Source of the DNA: a virus
Virus record (IMG/VR): IMGVR_UViG_3300018080_000222
Location: 1 to 54,119 of that record
DNA: 54,119 nt
Reading direction: 5' to 3' (one strand)
A program made the position numbers and the translations under genes. This document shows positions 18,435-46,531 of this stretch, piece by piece. The stretch's first letter is position 1, and each line of letters opens with the position of its first letter. The notes beneath the pieces were generated by a model. It had not been told where the DNA came from. It did no database searches and was given only the letters and a program-made list of their open reading frames with translations.

Positions 18435-18511
18435 TTAATTGGCTCCTAAGCGTTTCAGGGGTCCAGGACCCCGAGCAAGACGTCAAAGTGGCACACAGGC
18501 CGGGGAACGGA

Positions 18512-18938: not shown

Positions 18939-18962
18939 TTTATACACCTCTGCTAACTTACA

Positions 18963-19035: not shown

Positions 19036-19039
19036 ACTC

Positions 19040-19683: not shown

Positions 19684-19701
19684 TGAATCTTCTCCTCTAA
19701 T

Positions 19702-20974: not shown

Positions 20975-21951
20975 TAGGATTTTGCCAGATATCTGTTGCC
21001 AACTACCTTCAACTTTAATCTACCGATCTTGGGAGAACTTCGTTCCGTCGGTAGAGACACGACTACTCCCTCCCGATGATGATTGGCTCCTGGATAGGCA
21101 GAATCTTCTTCTGCCATCGCTAAAACCTTCTCCTTAATATATGGTCCTCTGTATAAAAACGGCACCCATGGGAGAGCACTACCAATATCCCTTGCTTCAT
21201 CAAAATCAAGCCAACGATTACCCTGTAATAAATCAAAAGCCGCCACGAAAACCCTGCCGTTCATAGAACCATATTTAAGGTTTTGGACATTCCCGAAAAC
21301 TTCGGCATATATAGTTATTCCCTGATTGTGCCTACACCATGCGTCTAAGACCGGATAGTTGTAGAAGGCTTTCCACCATAAGTTGTCCTTGTCCTCGGCC
21401 TTCCACTGTTTGCGAGACCCACAATACATCTTGTCGTTAACACAAACAAAACGCGCAGAAGCCCCGTGAAGCTTCTCGGACAAACATATCTCTTCACCAT
21501 CCTCTAGTAAATAGGAATATTTTCTAAAATTTGGTACATCATATACCGGATAGAAACCATCTGGTCCAGCAATGTTCTCGACAGAATCTTTCTTTAGCGG
21601 ATTATTCGGTCCCATGCTGCATCGGATAGGTGGCTCATAGTGTTCGATACCAAGCTGTTCCATACAGTCATCGCCGACTTGGGCTCCGGGTGGTGCAGGA
21701 ATCAATAGCCCCATGGACCATTCGCCCCTGAGCCTACGAGCCTTAATGCGACGATTGCCATTCAGAAAAGCAAAATCTGGCGTATCTGGTACTATGCTGT
21801 CGGGCTCAATGTATACAGCAAGATCGCCGTCTCTCCAGTCATCGGTTCGAACTGCACACTGGAAATCATCAACCATGACCAAACTCAAAGAGTCGGCATT
21901 CGGATGAGGCTCTAGTTTGACCCGGACCACCTCGGCAGTATGTTCTAGCAT
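20974..21951 (-). CDS. RNA ligase, Rnl5 / DraRnl-type (325 aa)
   Basis: The N-terminal ~90 residues form an OB-like domain (AEVVRVKLEPHPNADSLSL, WRDGDLAVYIEPDSIVPD), as in Deinococcus RNA ligase. The C-terminal nucleotidyltransferase domain has motif I SEKLHGASARF (nucleophile Lys in EKLHG), then IYAEVFG, FVAAFDLL, motif IV HREGVVV and motif V RLKLKV. This family seals 3'-OH/5'-phosphate breaks in RNA duplexes using ATP. Next to six tRNAs, it could repair tRNA or other RNA cut by host defence nucleases; that link is inferred. No polynucleotide kinase/phosphatase is visible in this window. The start overlaps the previous stop as TAATG, with GGAGAGGG upstream. Confidence 0.85.
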   Translation of the reverse strand: MLEHTAEVVRVKLEPHPNADSLSLVMVDDFQCAVRTDDWRDGDLAVYIEPDSIVPDTPDFAFLNGNRRIKARRLRGEWSMGLLIPAPPGAQVGDDCMEQLGIEHYEPPIRCSMGPNNPLKKDSVENIAGPDGFYPVYDVPNFRKYSYLLEDGEEICLSEKLHGASARFVCVNDKMYCGSRKQWKAEDKDNLWWKAFYNYPVLDAWCRHNQGITIYAEVFGNVQNLKYGSMNGRVFVAAFDLLQGNRWLDFDEARDIGSALPWVPFLYRGPYIKEKVLAMAEEDSAYPGANHHREGVVVSLPTERSSPKIGRLKLKVVGNRYLAKS

Positions 21952-26823: not shown

Positions 26824-27939
26824 TTATGTAGCTAGGCCAGCAGGGTCTTGCGTGTGAGTAACGCGTAAGCTGTTGAAATTCGAATAGTTGTAGCTTGTGG
26901 CGACATTGCCACCACCTGCATCCCCACCGCCGTAGCTCACAGACGATAGTTTGTTCTTCGCCCCGAGGTTAATTCTTGTACCCTCTTCAACCCAGATGAA
27001 AATCTTATGTTCGGTAAGGTTACTGCCACCGACTGGGTCTGCCATGGCGTCAATCAGATCACCCTCAGATGAAGTAGAGTCGATTGCACAGGTGACTTCG
27101 GTCGGGAACGAAACAAACCGGTGATACGGTCCTCGGCGTCCTAGTTCGAATAGCTCTTCACGACCAAGGTCCGTAGAAATCGTTACGGTCTGGAGGTGAG
27201 CAGCATATGCATCCCCGTCTACCAGGTTCCAGCCGTTGGCATCGATTCCATCGATCTCCGTGGGCCAAATACTACCACTAACACCAGTAATGACCCCAGC
27301 ATCACTCATGGAGCAACCTGAACCCATCAATACGTTTTCTCTACGGGCTACGCCACCAGAAGCAGCGAGAGAGAGTGGTTCATCTGAGCCATCGAATACA
27401 GATGGAGCGAAGTGGGTTAATCCAGAAGCAGTCCATTCCTTGTTATTGCCCACTAGGGTAATATCTTCGGTAGAACTACCCTCAACATTCAGTGTATACG
27501 TCAGAGTCGAGACGTACATACCGGACATACCCACAGACTGTAGCGGCGTTCCGGAAGCATTATCATTGGTATCTGGATAGATATTCAGAGCAGCAAAGCA
27601 CCGCTCATTGGACCTTCCAACCAGGGTCGCAGAAGTAGCACCAGGAGTTGCTAGGTGATACAGCAACGGATAGCCATCCAACACCTTCTGTGCTGTTAGC
27701 TCAATATCGGGGATACCCTCGACATTCTCATACAGTTCTAGTTGACCAAGCTCAAATACCTGCTCAAGATTGAATGTGGTATTTAAACCAACACTTTGAA
27801 CACCATGCGCAGTTCTGAATCCAGACGGGTGCGTTCCGGAACCAGCATGGAGTGCACCGGCGTCAAGCGGACATAATTGATCATGCTCCGCGAACCCCAA
27901 TGCCTGCCCGGCGTAGAAAATTCTTGAATTAACACTCAT
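26824..27939 (-). CDS. Major tail (tube) protein candidate (371 aa)
   Basis: A 371-residue beta-rich protein of low charge (MSVNSRIFYAGQALGFAEHD). It has repeated features: FNLEQVFELGQLELYENVEGIPDIE and STDLGREELFELGRRGPYHRF appear as two halves of the same pattern (~70-100 and ~255-290), suggesting an internal duplication typical of tube proteins. It has its own promoter-like motif and a strong terminator, as expected for an abundant protein. It follows the connector/neck genes and precedes (after the accessory island) the tape measure set. I assign tail tube from this; a spike or decoration role is less likely. Confidence 0.65.
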   Translation of the reverse strand: MSVNSRIFYAGQALGFAEHDQLCPLDAGALHAGSGTHPSGFRTAHGVQSVGLNTTFNLEQVFELGQLELYENVEGIPDIELTAQKVLDGYPLLYHLATPGATSATLVGRSNERCFAALNIYPDTNDNASGTPLQSVGMSGMYVSTLTYTLNVEGSSTEDITLVGNNKEWTASGLTHFAPSVFDGSDEPLSLAASGGVARRENVLMGSGCSMSDAGVITGVSGSIWPTEIDGIDANGWNLVDGDAYAAHLQTVTISTDLGREELFELGRRGPYHRFVSFPTEVTCAIDSTSSEGDLIDAMADPVGGSNLTEHKIFIWVEEGTRINLGAKNKLSSVSYGGGDAGGGNVATSYNYSNFNSLRVTHTQDPAGLAT

Positions 27940-27992: not shown

Positions 27993-28003
27993 ATTATACA
28001 CCA
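27993..28003 (-). promoter_or_regulatory. TGGTGTATAA-class promoter-like motif
   Basis: Reads TGGTGTATAAT on the minus strand; the TAA is also the stop codon of the LAGLIDADG gene (GGT GTA TAA). It stands ~55 bases before the tail tube gene. Confidence 0.55.
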
Positions 28004-28773
28004 ATAGCACTCAAATATTTCCGTGTTAATGATATGCTAGTATTATCATAAAGAGCACACAATAATCTGGCTATATATTTACCAGCATACTTAATTTCCC
28101 AACAACAATCTGTTTTTTTATATGGCGATACATTCGGTGACCATCCCAAAATATGGCTTATGAATTGATGGAAATTAACAACTACATCATAGGTACCGCA
28201 AATACCGAGTATTTTCTTGCTCACCCACCCATCCCCATCAATCATCCCTCGCCAAAAATGCCTATTGCTTTTCAAAGCTTCGGGAACTTTAGCAATCCTA
28301 CTTTTTCGAGGAACAATCCCATATTCTGCCAATTTTTCCACAATTCTGTTGGAATAAATACTCAAGAAGACTCCATTTTTATTGTAATACAACGGCTTAT
28401 CAGAACCAACGAATTTTTTGAACTTTTCCAAGTGCTCCCAATCCTTAGCAGCCAACCCTAAGTTCAATTGCTTCGATCTTCTCGGGGGATGGTAGATATT
28501 ACCATCAGCCAAAATAAAGCCTACCCAATAGGCGCTTTCTTCCGTAATTGTATCGAAGATATTTTCTCTAATCTGATTCGTCCTTTTCGCGTTGCTGCGA
28601 TTCCGGACAAAAACCCCTCGCCTTTTTAATAGAGACGTAATCGTAACATCAGCAACATTATATTTAAATCCTAATTGTCTGGCAGACTTTCCTCCTTCAT
28701 ATTCCCCTATTATTTCCTGCGTTACTGCCTCGCTCGGATTCCACTGATCTGATCTACTTTTTCTGTCCTGCAT
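27994..28773 (-). CDS. Free-standing LAGLIDADG homing endonuclease (259 aa)
   Basis: An N-terminal helix-turn-helix (IIGEYEGGKSARQLGFKYNVADVTITSL) is followed by two LAGLIDADG motifs, AYWVGFILADGN (~95) and FWRGMIDGDGWV (~185), so it should fold as a monomer with two active sites. Its own TGGTGTATAA motif lies upstream, with AAGGAGG before the ATG, and it is placed between virion genes. Expected homing activity into the same intergenic site in phages lacking it. Confidence 0.9.
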   Translation of the reverse strand: MQDRKSRSDQWNPSEAVTQEIIGEYEGGKSARQLGFKYNVADVTITSLLKRRGVFVRNRSNAKRTNQIRENIFDTITEESAYWVGFILADGNIYHPPRRSKQLNLGLAAKDWEHLEKFKKFVGSDKPLYYNKNGVFLSIYSNRIVEKLAEYGIVPRKSRIAKVPEALKSNRHFWRGMIDGDGWVSKKILGICGTYDVVVNFHQFISHILGWSPNVSPYKKTDCCWEIKYAGKYIARLLCALYDNTSISLTRKYLSAIGV

Positions 28774-28820: not shown

Positions 28821-29759
28821 TTATATATTTCCTACGTCAATTTCGATCTCCCAGGTGACCCTAGCCCTGAATAATTTAGAATTCAATGAATTAATTGTGG
28901 CTGGAGTACTATCTATCACTCTCATTAATTTCCAGGGATGGGCAGAGACCAAATCAGACCAATTTGTTGCCCCAGAAACCACATCGCCATATTCGTCAAA
29001 TGGGAATGTAATACCATTTAAATCAGCCAGCCAGAAGGTGCTCCGACTCTGGTAATCTAGCCAATCCATCAACAGATTCCTAGTTCCGGGACGATCGGCG
29101 AAAATGTGGAATGTGACATACCTGGTCTTAATTTGACCACCACCAAGCTGTAGTCCCCTTGCTGATCCATTAATTACCTCGATAAATACGCTGGGTAGCC
29201 ATATTTGATGCTCCCTGGTCGGGGTGCCAGACGGCAAAGCGTCAGTCTGAAACTCCTCAACCGCATTCAACATCATCGTCCTGAACTCGGGGTCATCTGC
29301 AAATCCAACATGTACCTGTCTACCAGTATATTCAAGTCGGATATCATCGTCATCGGCATTTTTGGGTTCATCGAAAATAACTCGCCCATTTAGGTAATCG
29401 ATGTGGTGAGCATAGATACCACCAGCAGTAGTAGAGTGGAAGTTTCCATTCACATATACTCCAGAAACACGGAATGGATCAGCACTGCCGCTGCCGAAGG
29501 TAACTCCACTTTCCCACACGAATTCCCTAGCGGATGCCTCCCAAACCCGTCCCTGGCCATATCTCTCATCTTCGACCGGATGCAATTTGGACTCATCGTC
29601 ATCCCAATGGCTGGCCGAGCTATACTCATAAATACTGAATCCACCATTGCGGACAAAGTTCCAGTCTGCGAACCACCTCAGGTTGTACAGAAGCTGATCG
29701 GTCATTGAGTATCCACCGAATCCAGCATCTTCGATTCCCTTAAAAGTTAAGGCACACAT
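28821..29759 (-). CDS. Neck / tail-completion structural protein (312 aa)
   Basis: A 312-residue beta-type protein starting MCALTFKGIEDAG, with a Gly-rich RBS (GGGGGG) just upstream. Residues ~95-160 (DPFRVSGVYVNGNFH, IDYLNGRVIFDEPKNADD) form a recognisable set of strands; ~210-235 (RYVTFHIFADRP) and 245-300 (WLADLNGITFPFDEYGDV) follow. It is last in the head-tail connection run, before the tail tube. Its assignment as a tail terminator or completion protein is by position only. Confidence 0.55.
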   Translation of the reverse strand: MCALTFKGIEDAGFGGYSMTDQLLYNLRWFADWNFVRNGGFSIYEYSSASHWDDDESKLHPVEDERYGQGRVWEASAREFVWESGVTFGSGSADPFRVSGVYVNGNFHSTTAGGIYAHHIDYLNGRVIFDEPKNADDDDIRLEYTGRQVHVGFADDPEFRTMMLNAVEEFQTDALPSGTPTREHQIWLPSVFIEVINGSARGLQLGGGQIKTRYVTFHIFADRPGTRNLLMDWLDYQSRSTFWLADLNGITFPFDEYGDVVSGATNWSDLVSAHPWKLMRVIDSTPATINSLNSKLFRARVTWEIEIDVGNI

Positions 29760-29771: not shown

Positions 29772-30467
29772 CTAGACCGTGGCCATTAATATCTTCGCTG
29801 CATCTTCTGCCACATGTGGTTGGCCCAGACTGTACTCTATAAAATTTTGGCCAGATTGTCCCGAAATTATATCTGGCAATACATACCCACCTGTGCCGCC
29901 AAGTGCCTTGAGTGAAACCATGATGGCCCTACCACTTCTCGACACCTTTTGAATCCTTACGTCTAGCTGTTGGTTTTCCCCACGAAACACTATGTCATAT
30001 GCCGCTTGACCGATATCGATAGTCGGGTCCATAAGTAGCCACCTAACGACCGGAATTACTACGCTCGAAGGACTAGAAACATATTGTGCGCCGGGAAGAG
30101 CCAAGTAACTATTCCAATCTCTCGGAACCGCCTGAATACGCAACGATACCTCCTTGGCACTACCGCGACTCAAAATCCTCACAGATGATCTAATCAGTTC
30201 GGCCATACCATCAGCAAGTGCATTGGCCATGCTATTCGTGAGACCAAAGTGCGCTGGCAAATCTTCCGGACCTTGTCCCCTAAGAGACTTGGCAACAGGG
30301 GTATTGTTGAAAGTAGTTACTAACATCCTACCAATTTTTTGGCTTGTGGTCGATGCCTTGGCCATTGCTCGTCTTGCCCACGTTTTCGAACCTTCCCTAA
30401 GAACTCCCTTAAAAAGCTGGGAATTAAAGTTCATAGTTGGTACCACTCTAATATCGAAATTAGCCAT
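29772..30467 (-). CDS. Neck or minor tail protein, HK97-gp10-like candidate (231 aa)
   Basis: The start is set at ATG 30467 (MANFDIRVVPTMNFN), overlapping the previous TAA (TAATG). The helix-rich N terminus (GSKTWARRAMAKASTTSQKIGRMLVTTF) is followed by an alpha/beta body with TPVAKSLRGQGPEDLPAHFGL. Size and position resemble gp10-like minor proteins of the neck and tail completion group. Family assignment is uncertain. Confidence 0.5.
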   Translation of the reverse strand: MANFDIRVVPTMNFNSQLFKGVLREGSKTWARRAMAKASTTSQKIGRMLVTTFNNTPVAKSLRGQGPEDLPAHFGLTNSMANALADGMAELIRSSVRILSRGSAKEVSLRIQAVPRDWNSYLALPGAQYVSSPSSVVIPVVRWLLMDPTIDIGQAAYDIVFRGENQQLDVRIQKVSRSGRAIMVSLKALGGTGGYVLPDIISGQSGQNFIEYSLGQPHVAEDAAKILMATV

Positions 30468-31057
30468 TATAGCAACTCCCAATAACTGATACAGTACCTG
30501 TCTTCTCTAAGACCCACGGGAATCGGCCCTTTGACCTTACGGACTCTCAACTGCATAACATTACGAATATCATAATTGACTATCGCAGTCTCGGCTCTCG
30601 TCAGACTGGGTGCATGTGTCAGGTAAGTCTTTATCCGTACGATACCCTTGTGGTCAGCAACTGATATACCGAAATCTTCTGCGTCATGCGGATTCCATTT
30701 CAGCAGAGCGTGGATACACTCCGTAGCTGCTGTTTCCAGAAAGCCTCTCCCCTTACAATATGGGCACCTACGTCCTCTCTCGAACGGACGTGGTCCTCCA
30801 GGTCTGTATACGCCATTCGATCTTTTGCGTATTGTATCGTAATAACAGTTGGTACACGGCGACTTGGTCGGGGTAAATTCTATCCACACGTATTTGCCAA
30901 GTTGATTGATAAGTGCATCAATTCTATCCTGGTATATGGTAATCAATTCATCACTAATCTGGATAGCTGCGTCTGGATCAAGGATGGGACATGATGAATC
31001 ATCAGGGACCGGGCTTCCATTCATAAATAGATTTAGCGTTCCACTCGTACTAGCCAT
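30467..31057 (-). CDS. Connector-like protein with CxxCxGxG motif, duplicate of the fibre C-terminal domain (196 aa)
   Basis: The start is set at ATG 31057 (MASTSGTLNLFMNGS), with GGAGG 8 bases before. The first ~15 residues keep one copy of the SGxLxLFxxG fibre repeat. From residue ~22 on (CPILDPDAAIQI) the protein aligns along its length with the C terminus of the 1869-residue fibre (residues ~1692-1869). The motifs shared are CTNCYYDTIRKRSNG, RRCPYCKGRG and the terminal PxPxGLREDxYCISYW. CxxC plus CxxCxGxG indicates a zinc site. It overlaps the fibre stop by one base (TAATG), so the pair is a tandem duplication; the function is probably in the neck or collar. Confidence 0.7.
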   Translation of the reverse strand: MASTSGTLNLFMNGSPVPDDSSCPILDPDAAIQISDELITIYQDRIDALINQLGKYVWIEFTPTKSPCTNCYYDTIRKRSNGVYRPGGPRPFERGRRCPYCKGRGFLETAATECIHALLKWNPHDAEDFGISVADHKGIVRIKTYLTHAPSLTRAETAIVNYDIRNVMQLRVRKVKGPIPVGLREDRYCISYWELL

Positions 31058-34000
31058 TAGATGGTCCTCCAAAAACTAATGCAATATTTGTCCTCCCTGA
31101 GACCGATCGGATACGGGCCTTTAACCAATGTAGCCCGGTATTTGACCAGGTTTATCACCTGACGATCTATTATGGCTATTCTGGCCCTCTGTAGGTCCGG
31201 AGCGTTGTCAATCAATGTCTTGAGCTTAACTATTTCTTCACTTTTCTGTACCGAAATGCCAAACTTGGCCACATCGGTAGGATTCCATGTTATCAAACAT
31301 TTTATACACAATTCTGAGACTTCCTCCAGAACACCCCTTCCCTTACAGTACGGACACCGACGCCCATCTTCAAACGAGACAGGCCCTCCAGGTACGTAAT
31401 GACCGGACGATCTTTTCCTCACCGGATCATATTGGCAGTTGGGACAATCGGTTATTGCTGGTTCAAATTGCAGGGTGACATTCTTCCCTGCCTGGTTCAG
31501 CAAGGCATCAACCCTACCTTGATATATATCAATTATACTTGATGGTATTTGAATCGCAGCGGTAGGATCAAGAATGGGGCACGCTATAGGTTCTACCGGT
31601 TCATATCCATTAATTACAAGAGTAATCTCTCCAGAATGGGGAATAATGCCTGACCCCGTCATCACCAGAGGTATGTTACCACTGGTTGTTTCATGTCCAC
31701 CTATAAATAGTGTTGTATCTCCAGAGGTACCCAGGTAACCATGGATAAACAGAGTAATGTCGCCAGAAGGTACATCGTACCCACCAATAAATAATGGGAT
31801 ATCTCCTGAAGCACCAATATGACCACCAATATATAATGGGATATCACCAGAGGCAAGCTGGTATCCGCCTACGAATAAGTCCATGCTACCGCTAGTGGTA
31901 CTATGTCCTTCAATAAACAGTGGTATGTCACCGGAAGCTATAGTATGTCCATTGATATACAAAGGAATATCACCGGACGTACTACTGTAACCATTGATGT
32001 ATAGGGGAATATTGCCAGACGACAAAGTATAGCCACCGATGAACAGAGTTGTATCACCAGAAGCCCCGGTGTGGCCTCCAATGAACAGTGGGATGTTTCC
32101 CGACGCTTCAGTTATAGCCGCTGTTCCACCTATGAAGAGTGTTGTGCTGCCAGAAGTAGTACTGTAACCATTGATATATAAAGGTATGTCACCGGAAGCA
32201 TTGACGTATCCACCAATGAATAGCGGGATATCCCCAGATACCGAACTGTGACCATGGATGTATAGTGTTGTGTCGCCAGAAGTAGTATCGTAGCCCCCGA
32301 TGAATAGATCAACGCTACCACTTGTGGTTTCGTAACCTTGGAGAAACAGGTCTATAGAGCCCGAAGTAGTTTGGCCAACCCCTGTCCCACCGATGAACAG
32401 TGGAATATTCCCAGATGCAAGATTATGCCCGCCAACGTAAAGCGAAATATCACCTGAAGCTAGACCATATCCTCCTATGAATAAATCGACAGAACCAGAG
32501 GCTGGTTCGTCTCCATGGATGAATAACGGAATATTATCTGTACCACTTTGGCGTCCTGCTATATATAGATCAATACTACCGCTAGCAGATTCATCTCCAC
32601 CTATAAAGAGGGTGGTTTCGCCAGACGCAGAAGTGTAGCCACCGATAAATAATGGGATATCACCTGAACTACCGGTGTGACCACCAATGTATAGTGGAAT
32701 ATCTCCGGAAGCAAGCTGATGTCCACATATGAATAGATCAATATTGCCACTTGCAACACTGTATCCGTTGATGAATAATGGGATATCTCCAGATGCGACA
32801 GCATATCCACCAATAAATAGTGTAATATCCCCAGAGCTTGGAGAGTAACCACCTACATATAAGGGTATGTCTCCGGACGCCGTGGTATATCCACCGATGA
32901 ATAAATCTGCATTCCCACTTGTGGTATCATGTCCCTGTATAAATAGGTCTATCGAACCAGAAGTCGTTTGACCGACTCCTGTGCCACCGATGAATAGTGG
33001 AATATTCCCAGATGCAAGATTATGCCCGCCAATGTAAAGTGGGATATCACCTGAAGCTAGACTATATCCTCCTATGAATAAGTCGACAGAGCCAGAGGCC
33101 GGTTCATGCCCACGGATGAACAGTGAGATATTACCCGATGTCTCTTCGTGACCACCGATGAAGAGTGAAATATCTCCAGACGCAATGGTATAGCCACCAA
33201 CAAACAGATCAATCGAACCAGAAGCCGTAGCTTCTCCTTTGATAAACAGCGGGATATCGCCCGAAGATGCAACATGTCCACCTATGAACAAGTCGGCTGA
33301 GCCAGAAGCCGATTCGTATCCATGGATAAATAGTGGGATATTGTCAGTGCCACTTTGGCGTCCTGCAGTATATAATGGCAAGTCTCCAGTGTTCTCTTGA
33401 TATCCACCGACGTACAAAGGCGTAGTACCACTGGACGTGCCAAGACCTCGAACGAAGAGATCGCGGCTAGTCAGGCGGTGATCATCTGTGGCTACTTTGA
33501 TATCAGGAGTTTGTCCCGACGGATATGTAGCAAAAATTTCTGTAGTATCTATTGGTTGTTTAACATAACCAATGTCACTGTCCGGACTGCTATCGGTACG
33601 AGCGAAATATATCCACTGACGGATAGAATTGATATCTATTTTTTCGGTATTCTCAGGCAGATTAGTGGCGATCACCGTTTCGTTGCTGCCACCCAAACTA
33701 CGACGTCGTATGTCTTTTCTGTTGGTCGTAAGGTAATATATGTGGCCATTGTCCGGGTCTATGCAAATGTCATTGTAGTAACGGGACCATTCGGCCCATA
33801 ACAGATAAGGAGATGAGCCATCTAAATTGGATCGCCATACTTCGGCTCGACCAAACTGTATGGAATTTTCGATCCAGTATAATTTGTCATTGATGGAATC
33901 AATGTCGAACCCAGTTATTGTAGCTGGACCGCTTCGGTCGAGTATAACTATTGGGTCGGACCCATCGATATTGGCTCGCATAAACCATAGTGCAGTCTCG

Positions 34001-36666
34001 TCTACCCAATACAAATAGTCATTGTCTATGTATAATGGACCAGGATTGCCGCTGGTGATAATATTTCTAATAGCTTGAGTGCTGGCTTCAAAGCGGTTTA
34101 TCTCTCCATGAGATGATTCGGACCAAAATACATTGCCATTGGAATAATCAAGCCCCAAGTGTCTAGGATATGTATTGCTAATATCGAATAGAGTTGTATC
34201 AGATTGGCCATTCACATCATATAGCGCCACGAATCTTGATCCAGTCGGGTCATTGTCATCATAAATATGATAAATCGAATCTCCCGGAAGTTTTTTGTGT
34301 CCTTGGATGTATAGAGTCATATTGCCCGAACACGGAATGCCGCCACCCCGGACAAATAGGTCTACATCGCCACTGATAGGCTGCACGCCTTCGACAAACA
34401 GGGCAACTTCGTCGTTAGCCTCATCAACGCCACCGATGAATAGTGATATTGAGGACAAATTCGGGTCATTATTCACTAACGCTACGGTGGGTTCTGAGTT
34501 AGGATCGTCATCAACCAGAATCACCAATTCATCAGTGACTAAATTAAGCGAACCTATCTGGCCCTTATCTAATCCGTCGGGAGTTGACCAGAATAATTGA
34601 TGCTGATTCTGATCAATAACAATTTCGCCGATATATTGTGGTAAATCCTCAGCGACAGTGGTGACATTGCTGCCATCAAGATGTGACTTGAATATGGCTT
34701 TGTACGTTTGAGTTTCGGAATAATATAGGGCATCATCATCAACATCTAGGGCAACTCCACGATAGTACTGGTCTTCTTCTACTCGCAACAGTTCTAGGTC
34801 AGAACCATCAAAATTAGCCCGATATATCGCACCAGAATTGCTCGGGATGTTATAATTTTCAGACCAATATATTTTCCCGTTATCGACATCGATGTCGAAA
34901 TAACTGGTCACATTTGACCTAGAGAATAACGCCTGGGAGTTTTCTCCATCCAGGTCTGACGCCACAAACGATGCAGAATCACCATCCACCCAATAGATTT
35001 TTCCATTGGTCTCGTCTATGCGAAGACCCCACGGCGATCCGCTGGCCAAAACATCATAAGTATCGCCATCCCGTTGGCGGTAGACCTTAATTTTGTCAGA
35101 ACCCAGCTCTTGCCAATAAACATCACCATTAGTAGTATCGACATCTAACTTACGGGGGTTGGTATTGCCAATATCATACAGAGTTTCATCTACGTCTGAT
35201 CCTACTGAGTATCGGTTCAGGTTGGCATTGCCCATCGAGTCTGAAATATGATATAGTGCATTACCAGGATAAGAATCGTGGCCGTGCACGAGCATAACAC
35301 ATGACCCAGACGCTAAGCCATGGCCGTTTGTATATAGGGAAACATTACCACTGGTGGTTTCTGAAACTGAGCCCTTAGACCTAACCCACAGCATACTATA
35401 CCATGGACCACGATGGTCGCCTGAACTAGTAGTCAAATTAGCATCATTAATCGATCCGCCAGAAGCAGGTTCGCAAGTCCAGTTGTGTATATGTGCACTG
35501 CCCTTTGCTCCAATAACAGATTGTTTGTTTGGAGAAGTAGTGTTCGCAGGAAATGCGTCGTTCCAGAAAAATTGTCCAATTATAATGTGGATGTGAGAGC
35601 CAGAAGTTTCATGGTCGTGGGATGACTCGTGCGTATGATAATCACTAGACGAATCAGTATCACCAATCTCCGAGTAATCTGTAGTGATTTTAATTTGGGT
35701 ACTGGTTAAGTCTATGGTAGTGCCACTACCGTTGCATATCTCCCACCATTCCGTATCTAGGCTACCGGAACTGCCAACATACCCAAATATCAAACCAGAT
35801 GGAACATCACTGGTACCGGTAGTTTGCACACCAAGCAACTTAGTGTAGGCTGGCTCTAGCCCACTGGCACTAGCATCTGTCGTAATGGTACTACTTGCAG
35901 CACCTGATGTCGACGCAACTGCCGAAGCTAGTGTGTGGTGTACCGGCTGAGCACGTCCTGGGATAGAAACCCCTGGTGAAGTGTTGAAGCTTCCAGCTAG
36001 ACCACAATCAGTTATTGGGTGATTATGATCATCGGCATCATGCCCATGTAACCCGCTAGTCTCGTGTGCATGACCACCAGAGGCAGCATTGACAGTTCCA
36101 CCATCTTGACCAGATGCAGCACCAACTACAAATAGGCCACTTAAACTGGGATAGCCGTTTACTCCACTGGCAATGGAAAACCCGTCTGGAGGAGTTTCTC
36201 GGTCAGTAAACGCAACAATGCCGCTTGGGATAGATGATGTCTCACTATCCGGTTTAATAACAATTGCGGTAATGTGTTGAGGGAAAAGTCCGGATATAGC
36301 TGTCGTTCCACCCGGATCAGAGGTGCTATAGTCAATTGAAGCAGGAGCAATATCATCACTATAGTGGGTATGTATTTGATTCGGTGCTAATATCCCTCCA
36401 CCCGCGTTGTCATATTGATTTACACCAGTTGCAGGTCCACCACTATCACTATTTACCCAGTGAAAGTGAGTATCCGAGGTATGTTCGTGTTCCGGGATGG
36501 TGTGATAGTGTCCGCTGCCACCGCCAAAAACTCCACCACTGACGGCACCCTGTAGGGCTCTACCATCACCAGAATTATCCCTAGAAAATCCCGCAGGGAT
36601 ACCACTGGGTCCAGATTCATCATGAATCCAGATCAAGCGGAAATTAGAGTCAAATGTTGGGGGCAT
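31057..36666 (-). CDS. Giant fibre: tail-collar-like + two YWTD propellers + ~44 LFIGG repeats + connector domain (1869 aa)
   Basis: Domain order: residues ~50-70 and ~200-225 are His-rich (HYHTIPEHEHTSDTHFHW; GHAHETSGLHGHDADDHNH), flanking a phage tail-collar-like segment (TDRETPPDGFSIASG, LSGLFVVGAASGQDGG) that may bind metal. Residues ~470-720 and ~800-1060 are YWTD-type beta-propeller arrays (NGKIYWVDG, DGSDL). Residues ~1069-1685 are about 44 copies of a ~15-residue SGD-x-PLFIGGY repeat. Residues ~1692-1869 are the CxxCxGxG connector-like domain duplicated in the next gene. The layout suggests a very long fibre or whisker attached at the neck; attachment is inferred. Confidence 0.75.
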   Translation of the reverse strand: MPPTFDSNFRLIWIHDESGPSGIPAGFSRDNSGDGRALQGAVSGGVFGGGSGHYHTIPEHEHTSDTHFHWVNSDSGGPATGVNQYDNAGGGILAPNQIHTHYSDDIAPASIDYSTSDPGGTTAISGLFPQHITAIVIKPDSETSSIPSGIVAFTDRETPPDGFSIASGVNGYPSLSGLFVVGAASGQDGGTVNAASGGHAHETSGLHGHDADDHNHPITDCGLAGSFNTSPGVSIPGRAQPVHHTLASAVASTSGAASSTITTDASASGLEPAYTKLLGVQTTGTSDVPSGLIFGYVGSSGSLDTEWWEICNGSGTTIDLTSTQIKITTDYSEIGDTDSSSDYHTHESSHDHETSGSHIHIIIGQFFWNDAFPANTTSPNKQSVIGAKGSAHIHNWTCEPASGGSINDANLTTSSGDHRGPWYSMLWVRSKGSVSETTSGNVSLYTNGHGLASGSCVMLVHGHDSYPGNALYHISDSMGNANLNRYSVGSDVDETLYDIGNTNPRKLDVDTTNGDVYWQELGSDKIKVYRQRDGDTYDVLASGSPWGLRIDETNGKIYWVDGDSASFVASDLDGENSQALFSRSNVTSYFDIDVDNGKIYWSENYNIPSNSGAIYRANFDGSDLELLRVEEDQYYRGVALDVDDDALYYSETQTYKAIFKSHLDGSNVTTVAEDLPQYIGEIVIDQNQHQLFWSTPDGLDKGQIGSLNLVTDELVILVDDDPNSEPTVALVNNDPNLSSISLFIGGVDEANDEVALFVEGVQPISGDVDLFVRGGGIPCSGNMTLYIQGHKKLPGDSIYHIYDDNDPTGSRFVALYDVNGQSDTTLFDISNTYPRHLGLDYSNGNVFWSESSHGEINRFEASTQAIRNIITSGNPGPLYIDNDYLYWVDETALWFMRANIDGSDPIVILDRSGPATITGFDIDSINDKLYWIENSIQFGRAEVWRSNLDGSSPYLLWAEWSRYYNDICIDPDNGHIYYLTTNRKDIRRRSLGGSNETVIATNLPENTEKIDINSIRQWIYFARTDSSPDSDIGYVKQPIDTTEIFATYPSGQTPDIKVATDDHRLTSRDLFVRGLGTSSGTTPLYVGGYQENTGDLPLYTAGRQSGTDNIPLFIHGYESASGSADLFIGGHVASSGDIPLFIKGEATASGSIDLFVGGYTIASGDISLFIGGHEETSGNISLFIRGHEPASGSVDLFIGGYSLASGDIPLYIGGHNLASGNIPLFIGGTGVGQTTSGSIDLFIQGHDTTSGNADLFIGGYTTASGDIPLYVGGYSPSSGDITLFIGGYAVASGDIPLFINGYSVASGNIDLFICGHQLASGDIPLYIGGHTGSSGDIPLFIGGYTSASGETTLFIGGDESASGSIDLYIAGRQSGTDNIPLFIHGDEPASGSVDLFIGGYGLASGDISLYVGGHNLASGNIPLFIGGTGVGQTTSGSIDLFLQGYETTSGSVDLFIGGYDTTSGDTTLYIHGHSSVSGDIPLFIGGYVNASGDIPLYINGYSTTSGSTTLFIGGTAAITEASGNIPLFIGGHTGASGDTTLFIGGYTLSSGNIPLYINGYSSTSGDIPLYINGHTIASGDIPLFIEGHSTTSGSMDLFVGGYQLASGDIPLYIGGHIGASGDIPLFIGGYDVPSGDITLFIHGYLGTSGDTTLFIGGHETTSGNIPLVMTGSGIIPHSGEITLVINGYEPVEPIACPILDPTAAIQIPSSIIDIYQGRVDALLNQAGKNVTLQFEPAITDCPNCQYDPVRKRSSGHYVPGGPVSFEDGRRCPYCKGRGVLEEVSELCIKCLITWNPTDVAKFGISVQKSEEIVKLKTLIDNAPDLQRARIAIIDRQVINLVKYRATLVKGPYPIGLREDKYCISFWRTI
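31615..33470 (-). repeat. ~44 tandem 15-residue SG(D/N)xPLFIGG(Y/H) repeats
   Basis: Within the fibre gene about 44 units of roughly 45 bases follow one another. Longer near-duplicates exist: two blocks around 32360-32530 and 32965-33115 share long near-identical runs (both contain GTGVGQTTSGSIDLF and the following units), pointing to recent segmental duplication. Confidence 0.9.
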
Positions 36667-37150: not shown

Positions 37151-37690
37151 TTACCTCGTACTCCTTCTGCCTGTTGCGAATTGATCATAGTACCAAGATA
37201 TTGTATCAGAAGAAGTGCCGGTCGGTAGGCGATATGGTCCGAAGACTGCCTTACCGACACCTCCACCAGACAAAACACCCGCTGCCTCAAGAGACCATTT
37301 AAGTTTCTCATAAGCAGCGCACGGTCCTAACTCCAGTATATCCCGATACCCACGAAAACTAACGCTGGTATCGATCATACTATCTCCATCCCTAACCTTG
37401 ATTCCCTGGCCAAGAGCCTTCTTGAATTCACCCTGGTTCAGAATACACGCAGCCTTCAACGGAATCATCGCCATGAAAACTTGGTCTTCAGAAGTAACTG
37501 GATCAGGAGAAATAGTCAAGTCTTCTATATCATAGGTGTATGTGTAATCAAATGCTACCTCAGCATCGACCATTATACCAGCCGTAATTAGCACCCTCTG
37601 GATGTAGGCATCAGTATATGTCTGTGGGGTATCTATATCGCTCACGAGGACACGAACCATCAAAACCAAATCTGTTGACCAGGCCATCAT
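37151..37690 (-). CDS. Head-tail connector (adaptor) candidate (179 aa)
   Basis: Mainly helical 179-residue protein. The pattern LVMVRVLVSDIDTPQTYTDAYIQRVLITAG, then the helical IPLKAACILNQGEFKKALGQGIKVRDG and YEKLKWSLEAAG resembles gp6-like adaptor proteins that bind the portal (helical bundle with D....YTD..I...L..A). It lies after fibre-like genes in the head-to-tail order. Role assigned on pattern and position, not on an exact family match. Confidence 0.65.
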   Translation of the reverse strand: MMAWSTDLVLMVRVLVSDIDTPQTYTDAYIQRVLITAGIMVDAEVAFDYTYTYDIEDLTISPDPVTSEDQVFMAMIPLKAACILNQGEFKKALGQGIKVRDGDSMIDTSVSFRGYRDILELGPCAAYEKLKWSLEAAGVLSGGGVGKAVFGPYRLPTGTSSDTISWYYDQFATGRRSTR

Positions 37691-37699: not shown

Positions 37700-38050
37700 T
37701 TAATTCTGAACAATATATGAAGACTTGTCATTAAGGGATGGCATTATACCATCCTTGCCCTCATTAGTGATCAGGATAAAGTCACCATCGTCCGTAGCAC
37801 CAGCCAATGACTCCATCCTGTAGGAATATTGTGCTCGGCTAGTAGTTGTTACGGGTAGGTTGGCAGTAGACCAGCTAAACTTACCGGTCGTGTCGATTTC
37901 AGTGCAGCCACTAGACGTCAAAACCTGCTCAACGCCACTTTGCCATACGGTTATCGTTACCGTAGCACCTGCTGCTAGTTCTCCTACAATTACTGGAGGA
38001 TCATCGACAGAATAGTGGTAGGTTCTGATTAATGATCCAGTACTTGCCAT
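37700..38050 (-). CDS. Small Ig-like protein, paralogue of the 1049-aa protein's C-terminal domain (116 aa)
   Basis: All-beta 116-residue protein (YHYSVDDPPVIVGELAAGATVTITVWQ). It aligns with the last ~115 residues of the next protein: SGCTEIDTTGKFSWSTANLPV versus SGCYAIGSTGRWGWSTSYLPV, and AQYSYRMESLAGATDDGDF versus QFFYRMVGNTGGVSDGEF. RBS AAAGGAGAG before the ATG. So a single Ig-like or fibre-tip domain exists both free and fused. Confidence 0.65.
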   Translation of the reverse strand: MASTGSLIRTYHYSVDDPPVIVGELAAGATVTITVWQSGVEQVLTSSGCTEIDTTGKFSWSTANLPVTTTSRAQYSYRMESLAGATDDGDFILITNEGKDGIMPSLNDKSSYIVQN

Positions 38051-38061: not shown

Positions 38062-41000
38062 TTACAGTAGGTATTCACTCTGTGACCCAGGATGGAACCA
38101 TCTTATACTTTCTGGTACATCAATCTTGAACTCGCCATCAGAAACACCACCGGTATTGCCAACCATACGGTAGAAGAACTGTTGACGATCAGTATTCATC
38201 ACTGGCAGGTAAGATGTTGACCAGCCCCATCTTCCAGTACTGCCGATCGCATAACATCCACTTGAGCCCAGTGACAATTCGGTATTAACCCCTCCGGTAA
38301 TGTTCCATATCTGGATAGTCACCGTTGCTGGACTACCGCTTACGCTTCCAACTAACTGTGGCGTATAATCAGCAGTCTTGATAAACTCTTCGGCAGACCT
38401 ACCCTGATATGTCCAGGCAACAGTCGTATCTCCGAAAATATACAGGGGTATATCTGCGTATTCTCTTTGTCCTGCTATGTATAGGTTGCCAGAAGCTGTA
38501 ATCAATTCGTGTCCTGGCACGACTAGGTTAACAATATCATTATTATATACACCAAGCTCTATGCCATCTGGATATTGGAGTCCAGCAGTTATGATGTCCT
38601 GAAGATTCGAACCGTCTAGATCGCATCTCTGCAATTTATCGGTCCCAAGATCAACGAAAAAGATATGTCCGTTAACCAAGTCGAGCGTTAGGCCGTGTGG
38701 GGTCTGGAGGGTGCCAGACGCAATAAGGGTCTCAATGCTGGTACCGTCCATGTTGGCCCGTTTGATAGTATCGTTACCAAAGTCTGTCCAGTACATCTTG
38801 CGATTAGGTAGGTCTAACTCCAGTCCTACCGGCAGGTCTAAGTCGGTATTAATGATTTCGACAAGATTTGAACCGTCTAGGTTGGCTCGATAAATAGCGT
38901 CATATATATTATCCACAAAATACATATGGCCACTAGCGACATCGAGACAAATACCCTGTACCCCACTTATGCCGGTCGTTATTAAGTCTGTTACTTCGGT
39001 ACCATCGTATTTTGATCTCTGCACCTTGTGGGCAGCAGCGTCAGTCCAGTAGAGTAACTCATTATCTGCATCAAATGCGATCCCACAGGGATTATCCAGT
39101 CCTGTGACAACTGTTTCAAGATTACCTCCGTCTAGATCGCATCTTTGAATTATGTCAGTATTGCTGTCAAGCCAATATACCTTCCCGTTAATCTCGTCAA
39201 CAGTCAAGTCTCTAGGTTCTGGAACACTACCGACCAAAATCTCGATATCCGAACCATCAAGGTTACATCTACGGATATTCTCGGTGTCTCTGTCTGAGAA
39301 GTACAACTTGCGGGTCTCACCGTCGTAGACATAGCAACCTTCAATAAAGCAATCCATACTACCAGGTGTTGGTCCCTGCCCTGCCGTATAAAGGTTACAT
39401 GTACCAGTCAAAGAAGCTGCCCAGTACGACGTATAGTTGGGCATGACATCATCGTATGTATCTTTCAAATCGTATAGGTTTCCGAGTTCTACGGCGGTAA
39501 GTTGACTAAAGCCGCTTCCACCCCAAACGATTACTTCGTCAATCCAGCTATCATAGTTATCGGTTCCAGATGCCATGATTGACGGAGCACTTCCACTACT
39601 GCTCAATACCGAAGCTGTGCCAGTATTTTGGGTACCCTGGTCAACCCACCCTGAACCATTAACAGATGTAGATAGTGTCCAATTAGTCCCTCCGGTATTC
39701 GCAAAATCGAATACGACAAAATGCTGCGAACCATCATTAACCGAAGTCATCAGATCAGAAATGCCAGAATCGTTCCATGTGGCATCACCGTCACCAAACA
39801 CAATGCTGCCACTGGTAACACCAATATTATAACCAGCATCGATGTACCACTCAGATGCTAAGACGGTTGGTTTCTGAGTCCAGAAAGCCAGGGTCAACCT
39901 ATCTGCATCCTCCAAAGAAGGATATACTCCTTGATCTGATGCGTAAATATGCGCAACACCACTAGTTAATAACACCTGTAAGTCGCCACGATCTTCCGTG
40001 ATATCATTGTCGTAAATTACGAAGCTAGTATTGCTCAGCGGTATAACTTGAATTTCGGTACCTTCGTCAGTTTCGTATGCCTCACTGACTATACCAGATG
40101 TTGCCGTTAGTCTTACTATCTGTGTCTGGATACCAAATGTGTTCTTACAAGTACTGACAATAAGGTTATTGCTGTTGAGAACATTCATGTCGCGGCGATC
40201 TGAATGCAAAACCTCAATCCCGCTAGCCGGGACACCACTGGTGGTTCCTCCAGTCAGGTAGAATTGGAATATTCTATCATTCTCATCGGAGATTTTCGAA
40301 TACATCGCGAGACGATTTGCCTCTACTCGCCTAACTATCGGTACTTCGACTAACGTACCCTCGCGAACGCTACCACTTGTGCCCATCGTAACGGTCAGGC
40401 CACTGAGACTACCTTGGATATAGCGACCAATTTCATCTGCGGCTGGTGCCTTTGGCGTGAAGAATGCTAGAAAATCATCGGAGTTAAACGATCCAACGGC
40501 CAGATATCTACTGTGATCAAGATCATCTATTACCACCGCAGAACCACTATCAACAGTAGTACCGCTAACAGCTAGCGCTCTCATGTAGCATTTGTTGTCA
40601 GTATTGCTTTTATTGGTAAGGGCATATATGCCCGAAGATGTCCCACTGACATATGGGGTCATCTCACACATAGTCATCTCGTATACAAAATTGCCATCGA
40701 ATTCTGTGGTCGATCCTTCGCTGATGGTAGTGCCATCAACATTTAGTACAGCCACATGTCCCTTATTGGGATCAGCACCACGGGTAACAATAAAACTATC
40801 ATCGGTGACCCTTTGTACGGCGACAGCATTGGAATATGTGGTATAGCTCTTACCGGCAATAACGGTATACTCATCCCCGGAGGTAGCCACATTATCCGTA
40901 AACTCTATGACTTTGGCAAAAAGGTCTTTGTTAAACCCAGTCTCTTTGATATAGACGCAAACATGTTTAGTGTCGGTTAGTTTGGTTGACCACAGGGCTG

Positions 41001-41211
41001 GAGTACCAGTTCCACTAGGCCCCATATAGGTTTGGGTCGGCAATGCCGTCAAATCATTGCCCTGATCTGGTGCGAAGCCCACGGGGTCGCCAGACGGCAA
41101 AACACCAGATACAAAAAGTCCGGAACCTGCCCAGATTTGACTTTGGGTATTCTCGGTGTTGTCGTCTACGGGATGATAGAAGTTAACTTCATTGGTTCTT
41201 AGGAATGCCAT
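38062..41211 (-). CDS. Fibre-like virion protein: propeller-like + LamG-like + YWTD propeller (1049 aa)
   Basis: N terminus (FYHPVDDNTENTQSQIWAG) is related to that of the 585-residue tail protein. Residues ~80-430 carry short RVTDDSFIVTRG-like strands, probably a propeller-type fold. Residues ~430-595 form a LamG-like domain (LTLAFWTQKP, WIDEVIVWGGSGF, ELGNLYDLKD). Residues ~634-890 are six or so YWTD repeats (GKVYWLDSN, LLYWTDAAAHKVQRS, KMYWTDFGNDTIKRANMDG). Residues ~895-930 carry two degenerate LFxxG repeats, and ~935-1049 the Ig-like domain duplicated in the preceding-listed small gene. Likely virion surface protein; receptor recognition is inferred. Confidence 0.75.
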   Translation of the reverse strand: MAFLRTNEVNFYHPVDDNTENTQSQIWAGSGLFVSGVLPSGDPVGFAPDQGNDLTALPTQTYMGPSGTGTPALWSTKLTDTKHVCVYIKETGFNKDLFAKVIEFTDNVATSGDEYTVIAGKSYTTYSNAVAVQRVTDDSFIVTRGADPNKGHVAVLNVDGTTISEGSTTEFDGNFVYEMTMCEMTPYVSGTSSGIYALTNKSNTDNKCYMRALAVSGTTVDSGSAVVIDDLDHSRYLAVGSFNSDDFLAFFTPKAPAADEIGRYIQGSLSGLTVTMGTSGSVREGTLVEVPIVRRVEANRLAMYSKISDENDRIFQFYLTGGTTSGVPASGIEVLHSDRRDMNVLNSNNLIVSTCKNTFGIQTQIVRLTATSGIVSEAYETDEGTEIQVIPLSNTSFVIYDNDITEDRGDLQVLLTSGVAHIYASDQGVYPSLEDADRLTLAFWTQKPTVLASEWYIDAGYNIGVTSGSIVFGDGDATWNDSGISDLMTSVNDGSQHFVVFDFANTGGTNWTLSTSVNGSGWVDQGTQNTGTASVLSSSGSAPSIMASGTDNYDSWIDEVIVWGGSGFSQLTAVELGNLYDLKDTYDDVMPNYTSYWAASLTGTCNLYTAGQGPTPGSMDCFIEGCYVYDGETRKLYFSDRDTENIRRCNLDGSDIEILVGSVPEPRDLTVDEINGKVYWLDSNTDIIQRCDLDGGNLETVVTGLDNPCGIAFDADNELLYWTDAAAHKVQRSKYDGTEVTDLITTGISGVQGICLDVASGHMYFVDNIYDAIYRANLDGSNLVEIINTDLDLPVGLELDLPNRKMYWTDFGNDTIKRANMDGTSIETLIASGTLQTPHGLTLDLVNGHIFFVDLGTDKLQRCDLDGSNLQDIITAGLQYPDGIELGVYNNDIVNLVVPGHELITASGNLYIAGQREYADIPLYIFGDTTVAWTYQGRSAEEFIKTADYTPQLVGSVSGSPATVTIQIWNITGGVNTELSLGSSGCYAIGSTGRWGWSTSYLPVMNTDRQQFFYRMVGNTGGVSDGEFKIDVPESIRWFHPGSQSEYLL

Positions 41212-41214: not shown

Positions 41215-41961
41215 TTATGTCGTCCTTTCGCCAACAACAGCCTGGATCGCGTTGATTACCGACGGCGTCATGAAGTGCTGTTGAAACTCTTCTTCACTGT
41301 AGCCGATATCGACAGCAACTGCCTGGGTTCTGGTTGGAAAACTGATAGACTGCAATCTCTTCGTTACCGTAGAAGCATGAACTCCCAGTAGTCTCCCAAC
41401 CTGTGATGCAGATAAACCCAAGTTGTATAGAATTATGAATATAAAATCGGGGAAAACCTTATTGGCGGCAGACCTGCTTCGGAATTGTACGCCCATTTTC
41501 TTGAGCTTGTTATAAATTGTCGTCTCACTGCAAAGGGCCATTTGAGCAATTTCCGCACAACTCTTGCGTTCTTGCTCATAAAAATACTGGATTTGAGCGT
41601 CCGATATATGTATATATCCGCTGTGCCTCATTCTGTCTTGGGTATTCTCCGCGTTAGTACCATATTGCAAATTTTCTAAACGATTATTGGTTGAATTTCC
41701 GTCTAAATGACGAGTCTCTAGGCGCTCTGGACGTGGACCCACAAATGCCGCTAGAACCAGGTGATGTATTCTGTATGGCTTACTCCTGCCATTTTGGCAA
41801 AGACTAACTGTCTGATAGCGATTAAATCTGTCGGTTCTACTGGGCGAAAGAAGCCTTTCACGACGACAATTATGTCCCGCCAACCTTTTAATTCGTCCAT
41901 GGCTAGAGACTTGATATATGCCTTCGTACTCCGGTATATCTTTCCAAATTTCAGCAGACAT
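41215..41961 (-). CDS. NUMOD4 / HNH homing endonuclease (248 aa)
   Basis: Start chosen at ATG 41961 (MSAEIWKDIPEYEGIYQVSSHG). NUMOD4 signature EIWKDIPEYEGIYQVSSHGRIK is followed by HNH_3-type HHLVLAAFVGPRPERLETRHLDGNSTNNRLENLQYGT. The C terminus has two HTH-like segments (IAQMALCSETTIYNKLKKMG, QVGRLLGVHASTVTKRL). Own TGGTGTATAA motif upstream. Inserted between a virion protein gene and another HNH gene. Confidence 0.92.
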   Translation of the reverse strand: MSAEIWKDIPEYEGIYQVSSHGRIKRLAGHNCRRERLLSPSRTDRFNRYQTVSLCQNGRSKPYRIHHLVLAAFVGPRPERLETRHLDGNSTNNRLENLQYGTNAENTQDRMRHSGYIHISDAQIQYFYEQERKSCAEIAQMALCSETTIYNKLKKMGVQFRSRSAANKVFPDFIFIILYNLGLSASQVGRLLGVHASTVTKRLQSISFPTRTQAVAVDIGYSEEEFQQHFMTPSVINAIQAVVGERTT

Positions 41962-42008
41962 TATGCCATTTATCTCCAAGGAATGAAAGACCTTTCACCA
42001 ATCAATTG

Positions 42009-42019
42009 ATTATACACCA
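42009..42019 (-). promoter_or_regulatory. TGGTGTATAA-class promoter-like motif
   Basis: Reads TGGTGTATAAT on the minus strand, just after the terminator at 42033-42055, about 50 bases before the NUMOD4/HNH gene. It may also serve the following fibre gene. Confidence 0.55.
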
Positions 42020-42032
42020 GGAGTGGGAAAAG

Positions 42033-42055
42033 AAAAAACCCGCCAGGATGGCGGG
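42033..42055 (-). terminator. Rho-independent terminator
   Basis: Minus strand CCCGCC-loop-GGCGGG followed by TTTTTT. Ends the unit of the 417-residue HNH protein. Confidence 0.92.
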
Positions 42056-42091
42056 CAGTGGGATGCTTCGGCAGGAATTATTGTGTCGGTT

Positions 42092-45008: not shown

Positions 45009-46511
45009 CTATTCACCCCCTTCGTCTGTTTCGTTTTTCTTGCCGCACAAAGCGTGCGCCATACCAACCCACTGGCCAGCCTCTGACTTCTCAACATCTT
45101 CCGATGCATTAAATTCAGGACCACCATCTTCGTCCACATTATCCAGAGCAGCTTCGGCTGCTTCTGCCTCATCATCCTCAGTCGTCTGCTCTGCCTTCTC
45201 AGCTTGGTCACTTTCGGTAGCTTCTGTCTTATCTTCAACTACCTCTTTCTCGACCTTAGCCTCTCCAGCAAACTTCATAACAGACTCAAATTCTGAGTCT
45301 TCCATGTCTCGTAGTGCAGCTAGTGTTGCGTCTTCGTCTTCAATAGACCTTACTGCCGCCAACTTAGCTAGTCGTTCCCGAGCCACTTCGGTCTTCCGGA
45401 TTTCACTCAATTCAGCTTCACTTGTTTCAGCACGCTTCACCGCTTCGTCGAGCTTCGTCTGAAGTTCCACCTTCTCAGCCTCTACAGCCTCGATTTTCTC
45501 AGACGTCTCTGTGACATTAGCAGTCAATGTCGCAACCTGACCGTCATAGTCCTTCTCTTCAAAATCCTGAACGGTCTTCTTCAACTCCGCTACTTCCTGC
45601 TCCTTCTCATTGAGTTTTGCCGTTACCTCATCCAGCTTTGCCTGAAGTTCCTCCATTTGTTTTTCATCCACGTCTTCTACACCTCCTTCCAATAGGTCTT
45701 TGAGTTCAGCAGTCACGAAAACCTGAGAAGCAGCCTTGCGATTAGCTGCCACCCTTATCACAGATTCTGGATTAGCAGGCGTATCAACGAACCCCTGCGC
45801 ACCAAAAACAAAATCCTTTAATACTCTACCAACCCTATACTCTTGGTACTGGCCAGTCCCGCCATAAGCTCTTAGGTGCTTGGTGAGAAAGGCCGTATTC
45901 TCATTCCTGGAAATAAGCTTGGTCTCTCCGGTCGCCGAATCGATCAACCCATAATCAAAATCAGGGAACCATGCCTCCATAGAAACAAAAATATCCCCAG
46001 CCTGAGCCTTCTCTATAATTTCGTTGATCCTATCTCTGAGGTCGGGGAACTGTCTATACAGAACACCAGCAACCTCAAGATCAAAGTCGGCAGGGAGGTC
46101 ATCGCCCTCTCCAATACTTATCTCGTCGCCAGACTTATCGATAGCCTTACTCTGAACGATGTGGCCCAAAATCTTGGTTGCATCATGCTGATCATTCATC
46201 GGCTTGTGAACTGGGGACGACCGAGCTTTCCACACTTCTGCCGGAACAAAGACATCGTCGTTTAAATTCCAGCCGGTACTCACTAGGATAGAAACAACTA
46301 GCGCCAGATCGAACTGCTCTTTGCCAAGAAGTTCCTCGACACTCTGAACAGACGCTGCGGCATTCTTGATCAGATCGGCTACGGACATATCCTTGAAATA
46401 CTGCTCTACGTCTCCAAGTTGTACTTGTGCCGTAACAAAAGCGGAAGAACGACCGTCTTCGCCCGATTTGTGGTCTATCCCAGCATCCTTTTCAGCTTGG
46501 TAAGTTCGCAC
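45009..46511 (-). CDS. Prohead protease / scaffold fusion (500 aa)
   Basis: Start chosen at GTG 46511 with GGAGG 5 bases before it. Residues ~50-270 look like a capsid maturation protease: WNLNDDVFVPAEVWKARSSPVHKPMNDQHD (candidate catalytic His), then GDIFVSMEAWFPDFD (candidate Ser) and FGAQGFVDTPANP. Residues ~280-410 are long coiled coil (MEELQAKLDEVTAKLNEKEQ, VEAEKVELQTKLDEAVKRAE), and the last ~80 are strongly acidic (TEATESDQAEKAEQ). This protease plus coiled-coil layout matches phage protease-scaffold fusions that guide capsid assembly and are then degraded. Confidence 0.75.
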   Translation of the reverse strand: MRTYQAEKDAGIDHKSGEDGRSSAFVTAQVQLGDVEQYFKDMSVADLIKNAAASVQSVEELLGKEQFDLALVVSILVSTGWNLNDDVFVPAEVWKARSSPVHKPMNDQHDATKILGHIVQSKAIDKSGDEISIGEGDDLPADFDLEVAGVLYRQFPDLRDRINEIIEKAQAGDIFVSMEAWFPDFDYGLIDSATGETKLISRNENTAFLTKHLRAYGGTGQYQEYRVGRVLKDFVFGAQGFVDTPANPESVIRVAANRKAASQVFVTAELKDLLEGGVEDVDEKQMEELQAKLDEVTAKLNEKEQEVAELKKTVQDFEEKDYDGQVATLTANVTETSEKIEAVEAEKVELQTKLDEAVKRAETSEAELSEIRKTEVARERLAKLAAVRSIEDEDATLAALRDMEDSEFESVMKFAGEAKVEKEVVEDKTEATESDQAEKAEQTTEDDEAEAAEAALDNVDEDGGPEFNASEDVEKSEAGQWVGMAHALCGKKNETDEGGE

Positions 46512-46531
46512 AAAACCCTCCAATCATTTGT

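Follow-up and report, generated by a model that had tools for sequence, protein, structure and literature searches.

The DNA analysed here is a viral stretch of 54,119 nucleotides (IMG/VR record IMGVR_UViG_3300018080_000222, positions 1 to 54,119; hereafter the window). Its minus strand encodes, in a single unbroken open reading frame (ORF) at 31057-36666, a protein of 1869 amino acids (aa), P0001, which appears to join a giant fibre to a domain resembling the phage head-closure protein, or stopper. P0001 has no match in PHROGs or INPHARED, and tblastn searches with P0001, its C-terminal cysteine-containing domain (the zinc domain), its propeller 1, the window's major capsid protein (MCP), and a 1049-aa fibre encoded nearby retrieved nothing among 50,697 phage records. 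The parts of P0001 and the adjacent standalone gene are listed below.

31057..36666, minus strand: fibre gene P0001, whole (1869-aa ORF)
35371..36666, minus strand: N-terminal region rich in His, residues 1-432, made up of three modules that contain HxH clusters, with weak likeness to tail-fibre collar domains
35269..35352, minus strand: two 14-aa repeats ahead of propeller 1, residues ~439-466 (repeat pattern)
34504..35271, minus strand: six-bladed YWTD propeller 1, residues 466-721 (sequence match and AlphaFold)
34288..34458, minus strand: four 14-aa repeats separating the propellers, residues 737-793 (repeat pattern)
33487..34284, minus strand: YWTD propeller 2, residues ~795-1060 (sequence match and AlphaFold)
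31594..33474, minus strand: main array, the 14-aa repeat in 44 copies, consensus SGDIPLFIGGYxxA
31060..31584, minus strand: C-terminal predicted stopper (head-closure-like) domain, CxxC...CxxC (53% identity to the standalone gene, and that copy's fold)
30467..31057, minus strand: standalone stopper gene, 201 aa, one repeat and the zinc domain (paralogue of the P0001 C-terminus)

Modules of the fibre

A preliminary description of this DNA had proposed two YWTD propellers in P0001, and sequence and structure searches agree with it. The propellers match LRP4 when searched against PDB chains with phmmer (E 4.5e-27), and Pfam DUF5050 matches as well (E 2.3e-12); Pfam Ldl_recept_b stays below its cut-off (16 vs 21 bits). 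In the AlphaFold model most propeller blocks reach a predicted local distance difference test score (pLDDT) of 80-94 and both propellers are six-bladed, YWTD-type, and LRP6-like, propeller 1 aligning to LRP6 with a VIA-align Z of 26 and 2.5 A across 238 residues. No EGF match was found in P0001 by Pfam, and both propellers are succeeded by 14-aa repeats instead of an EGF-like module. The homologues in loci L008 and L010 share the His-rich tip, the repeats, and the stopper domain with P0001 but lack propellers, which indicates that the propellers are insertable modules. In a stopper-fused fibre of 1458 aa at another locus (L019:10674-15050), an RCC1-type propeller replaces the YWTD type (Pfam 3.3e-48).

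The description's count of about 44 tandem repeats is exact for the main array, where 44 matches to the pattern L[FYVA][ILVMTCQ]xG fall in residues 1070-1683. Six more lie elsewhere (two precede propeller 1 and four separate the propellers), and the 50 observed matches compare with a mean of 1 and a maximum of 6 in whole-protein shuffles. The repeat period had been given as 15 residues and has to be corrected to 14: P0001 is 46% identical to itself at lag 14 vs 6% at lag 15, and shuffles never exceed 15% at any lag. A repeat solenoid is not supported either, as AlphaFold models the repeats at a pLDDT of about 50 only. Scanning viral contigs with a stretch of repeats, a scan which finds close relatives only, retrieved just the contig of that stretch. 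A 585-aa ORF beside the tape measure gene (4617-6374) carries about 13 copies of the 14-aa repeat and has neither of the two C-terminal anchor domains described below.

The N-terminal region had been described as His-rich and collar-like. The enrichment in histidine is real: residues 1-432 contain 27 His, where the composition of the remaining protein predicts 9.6, and 11 HxH, with HxH triplets in register in the three modules. The likeness to a collar is weak: a profile of four homologues matches one tail fibre (PDB 9qgo, E 2.9e-4, 67 positions with a collar-like signature), and no Pfam family is matched by these residues. The His-rich tip is not confidently modelled in the AlphaFold monomer.

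The C-terminal zinc domain and the neck gene cluster

The C-terminal domain of P0001 (CPNC...CPYCKGRG) does exist a second time as a separate gene, as had been noticed earlier, namely in the gene directly downstream. The start codon of this standalone gene (ATG, 31057) overlaps the stop codon of P0001 (TAATG) and has GGAGG upstream, which suggests that the two are translated in a coupled manner. Relatives of the domain were collected at 75 loci by a scan of viral contigs and at two more in bacterial and archaeal genomes, giving an alignment of 78 sequences. A distant clade, at about 30% identity, has it as a standalone protein of 169-227 aa without exception, and no repeat-bearing ORFs were found in the loci of this clade; among the large uncultured phages that make up a near clade, proteins of 400-1869 aa often end in it. 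The four cysteines (CxxC...CxxC) are invariant in all 78 sequences, an invariance that is partly built in since the search patterns themselves contained CxxC. A DnaJ-type zinc domain was considered and rejected, as the Pfam score (0.46) is at chance level and the UvrA/DnaJ matches are weak.

From this alignment AlphaFold modelled the standalone copy at a pLDDT of 89.5 as a stopper-like beta-barrel with an N-terminal helix. Its nine best VIA-align matches are all phage neck proteins (Z 8.1-9.7), among them lambda gpFII (9.7), the Chi neck (9.3), the lambda neck (9.2), the Pam3 neck (8.6), T4 gp13 (8.1), and the T1 stopper (8.1); the phage 812 stopper (7.8) and SPP1 gp16 (7.3) also score above unrelated flavin reductases (at most 7.1). 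Foldseek against the PDB returned the T4 neck protein gp13 as its top three matches (best E 7e-3), and the matching predicted viral structures in BFVD include entries named "head closure protein 1", head-tail joining, and "neck protein".

The position of the gene points the same way. Read from right to left, the morphogenesis cluster of the window consists of the terminase with inteins, the portal (identified by a match at 4.9e-08, and matching only Bacillus phage G, at 24%, in the 50,697 phage records), protease/scaffold, decoration protein, MCP, the 1049-aa fibre, a 116-aa protein, a putative adaptor, P0001, its 201-aa paralogue, a neck protein, a putative terminator, and the tail tube, with the tape measure protein (match 1.2e-26) further left. 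Near-clade loci follow the order decoration protein, MCP, second anchor, adaptor, stopper(s), Ne, terminator, and tube, and the zinc domain occupies the stopper position in every one of these loci that has its neighbours in view. Assignments within the cluster are as follows.

45009..46523: putative head protease/scaffold, named by position and look only
38062..41211, minus strand: second giant fibre, 1049 aa, with YWTD propeller, repeats, and second anchor at residues 947-1041 (Ldl_recept_b 1.1e-33, above the Pfam cut-off)
37700..38050, minus strand: second anchor domain, standalone copy, 116 aa (Ig-like by inspection only)
37151..37690, minus strand: putative head-tail adaptor, by position (synteny) only, with no match in PDB or PHROGs
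29772..30482, minus strand: neck protein, Ne1 position (synteny)
28821..29759, minus strand: putative tail terminator (synteny, and weak similarity to a terminator of solved structure in a profile search, E 0.07)
26824..27939, minus strand: putative tail tube protein, by position (synteny)

Predicted fold and gene position together give good support for regarding the C-terminal domain of P0001 as head-closure, or stopper-like. Stopper families diverge widely in sequence, and searches of PDB and PHROGs matched the zinc domain to none of the named ones, so the assignment rests on fold and gene position.

Several other features of the window were recorded. The terminase large subunit frame (49856-54097) contains intein splicing and LAGLIDADG domains, apparently from two inteins, and HNH/homing endonuclease genes stand among the structural genes at 27994-28773, 41215-43345, and 3840-4616. 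Between the portal and protease genes lies a methyltransferase-like gene (46921-47619; weak PHROG match, FkbM-like by inspection). In the interval from tail tube to tape measure, at 14060-20070, there are many small ORFs together with six tRNA genes, and an RNA ligase is encoded at 20974-21951.

Fused stoppers and a proposed neck whisker

Fused and standalone stoppers interchange between phages of the near clade. Counting the loci in which the interval from adaptor to neck is visible or nearly so (L023 begins inside it), seven neck modules have fused stoppers only (L014, L015, L016, L018, L027, L028, and L085), seven have both forms (the window, L009, L010, L019, L023, L025, and L026), and six have a standalone stopper only (L011, L012, L013, L017, L021, and L084). 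No standalone copy was found in the six of the seven fused-only records that were searched whole. All four cysteines are retained in the fused copies. The fused copies are scattered over the tree: a single origin of the fusion is rejected by the approximately unbiased (AU) test of their monophyly (p 0.0006) and the best tree takes 8 changes, so fusion has been gained or lost several times. The fused copy of the window groups with the fused copies of L009 and L010, and its standalone copy with their standalone copies, from which it follows that the fused/standalone pair is older than these phages.

A free stopper could in principle be made from an internal start in a fused gene. At the junction of repeats and stopper, the fused-only genes show no Shine-Dalgarno start except a weak TTG (AAGG) inside the domain of L014, and this route was rejected; the scan missed the true junction in the window's gene and in one L023 gene, in both of which it was anchored within the zinc motif. 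We would like to note that two host links are insecure. L085 lies in a Heimdallarchaeota metagenome-assembled "chromosome" (CP070695.1), whose viral part stops at a scaffold gap of 100 N (14845-14944); the locus may therefore be a mis-scaffolded phage contig and does not establish an archaeal host. The contig of L084 is short and was binned as Phycisphaerales.

The stopper is one of two domains in which such fibres end. The 1049-aa fibre ends in the second anchor, as do one to three fibres in other phages of the near clade, beside a standalone copy. Nothing in PDB, Pfam, NCBIfam, or PHROGs matches this domain, and it is too variable for an alignment scan. Repeat-bearing ORFs of the near clade number 36 (counted as ORFs and not as independent phages, a few loci being duplicate fetches of one contig), and 21 of them end in a stopper, 12 in the second anchor, and three in neither, one of these being cut by a contig end. 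With 33 of 36 ending in one anchor or the other, a modular scheme emerges of one or more adhesive modules, a shaft of 14-aa repeats, and one of two anchors. In L011, L012, L013, and L017, which have no stopper-fused fibre, a second-anchor fibre occupies the interval between adaptor and stopper, as if either anchor could stand in for the other; fibres of both kinds occur in L014 and L018.

The preliminary description had suggested a neck-attached whisker held by a connector-like domain, a suggestion that is well supported and can now be sharpened to a stopper by the fold, the gene position, and the fused-only neck modules. We think it probable that P0001 is a giant neck whisker which carries a subunit of the stopper ring as its C-terminal domain and its adhesive modules at the distal N-terminus. 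Fused as it is to a stopper-like domain, the fibre is probably an integral part of the neck. The zinc domain would be one subunit of the stopper ring, which lies between the adaptor and the tail terminator, in a ring made of the fused stopper alone or, where both forms exist, mixed with the standalone one. The fibre would leave the ring outward through the N-terminus of the stopper domain, the 44 repeats of the main array would form its shaft with the two propellers inserted in the repeat array, and the His-rich collar-like tip would lie at the far end, where tip and propellers probably bind the host surface. In the fused-only phages every ring subunit would bear a fibre unless it is cleaved.

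Several points weigh against this proposal. The neck fibre is known here from genes and predicted structures, the fold prediction is that of the standalone copy, the Foldseek E-values are modest, and the zinc domain matches no named stopper family in sequence. The adaptor and terminator that frame it owe their names to position, confident models of the repeat shaft and the N-terminal modules were not obtained, and the records may be fragments, though the intervals from adaptor to Ne are complete. A further objection is that the fusion could be a precursor which a protease cuts between repeats and stopper, freeing a normal stopper and a fibre attached elsewhere. The putative head protease/scaffold of the cluster speaks for this, as does the lack of a convincing internal start, which leaves cleavage as the only way for a fused gene to yield a free stopper. 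However, one or two N-terminal repeats persist on the standalone stopper in the window and in L006, so a repeat is tolerated on the mature stopper, and in 12 other fibres a different anchor takes the same C-terminal place; we consider such a precursor unlikely.

Slightly less likely again, in our judgement, is that the stopper fold was recruited to fix the fibre at another site (baseplate, tail tube, or capsid vertex) and that the neck ring is purely standalone stopper. The window and six relatives do encode both forms, and the fused copy of the window is the more diverged of the two (62% identity to its nearest relative, 68% for the standalone copy), as would fit a recruited domain. Nevertheless, seven neck modules offer fused forms only, and the fused genes sit within the neck cluster, away from the tail-tip genes. 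We give very little credence to a stopper-like domain with no stopper role, in a fibre that is dispensable or absent from the virion, for instance an assembly chaperone (a role suggested for neck whisker/decoration proteins of phage 812; PMC12886913), for although incorporation into the virion is inferred, the domain is conserved across the clade with its four cysteines, the adhesive modules vary (YWTD, RCC1, collar-like), and fused-only neck modules exist.

If P0001 is a neck whisker built on the stopper, the fibre is covalently part of the head-closing ring and sometimes the sole stopper, and a link between host contact and genome retention or release becomes a testable idea. We hold the chances to be evenly balanced for a wider proposition, in which two C-terminal anchors interchangeably mount changing giant adhesins and in some phages every stopper subunit bears a fibre, so that ring and whisker are one polypeptide and surface contact could act directly on the genome gate.

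Comparison with known neck and adhesin proteins

As far as our tools reach, the new elements are a stopper domain used as the C-terminal anchor of a fibre, its repeated fusion, neck modules with fused stoppers only, and YWTD propellers in a phage; literature searches, with their incomplete open-access coverage, found no fibre-stopper fusion. The analysis also names a clade of large uncultured phages without a close relative in GenBank.

The zinc domain resembles lambda gpFII, SPP1 gp16, T4 gp13, and phage 812 gp97 in predicted fold (Z 7.3-9.7) and in lying between the adaptor and the neck, terminator, and tube genes. It differs from these stoppers in having no detectable sequence similarity to them, in being duplicated, and in being fused to giant fibres. 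The phage 812 stopper gp97 binds zinc through a tetra-cysteine loop, CPC-(X)n-CxxC, which was reported as specific to Herelleviridae and conserved in no other phage group (PMC12886913). The domain in P0001 has CxxC-(26 residues)-CxxC, a putative zinc site; judged by sequence motif, tetra-cysteine stoppers would extend beyond Herelleviridae.

The preliminary description held YWTD propellers to be unusual in a phage fibre, and indeed neither PHROGs nor the 50,697 phage records yielded a match to them. Beta-propellers as such, however, are known in the phage receptor-binding proteins phi11 Gp45, PRD1 P2, and phiKZ gp131 (PMC4901313), which share with P0001 a propeller within an adhesin, but are five- or seven-bladed, belong to other structures, and are not fused to a neck protein. 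The closer likeness is to LRP6, LRP4, and LDLR, which have the same six-bladed YWTD fold; in contrast to these, the propellers of P0001 have no EGF module and are embedded in an array of 14-aa repeats. The tip is weakly similar to phage tail collar domains, with its collar-like signature and HxH clusters, but the collar-like part of P0001 sits at the N-terminus of the chain and matches no Pfam family.

Fibres of phages usually attach by their N-terminus, and C-terminal anchoring would invert this polarity in P0001. Distinct proteins surround the neck in other phages, namely T4 fibritin (wac), the XM1 gp40 collar spikes, phi29 gp12, and the neck passage structure of TP901-1, the last of which is thought to attach over the adaptor by N-terminal domains (PMC10491603; PMC10747895). 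P0001 resembles all four in its inferred place at the neck and its likely role in surface contact or sensing. It differs from them, as far as their descriptions go, in that its C-terminal part would itself be the ring protein.

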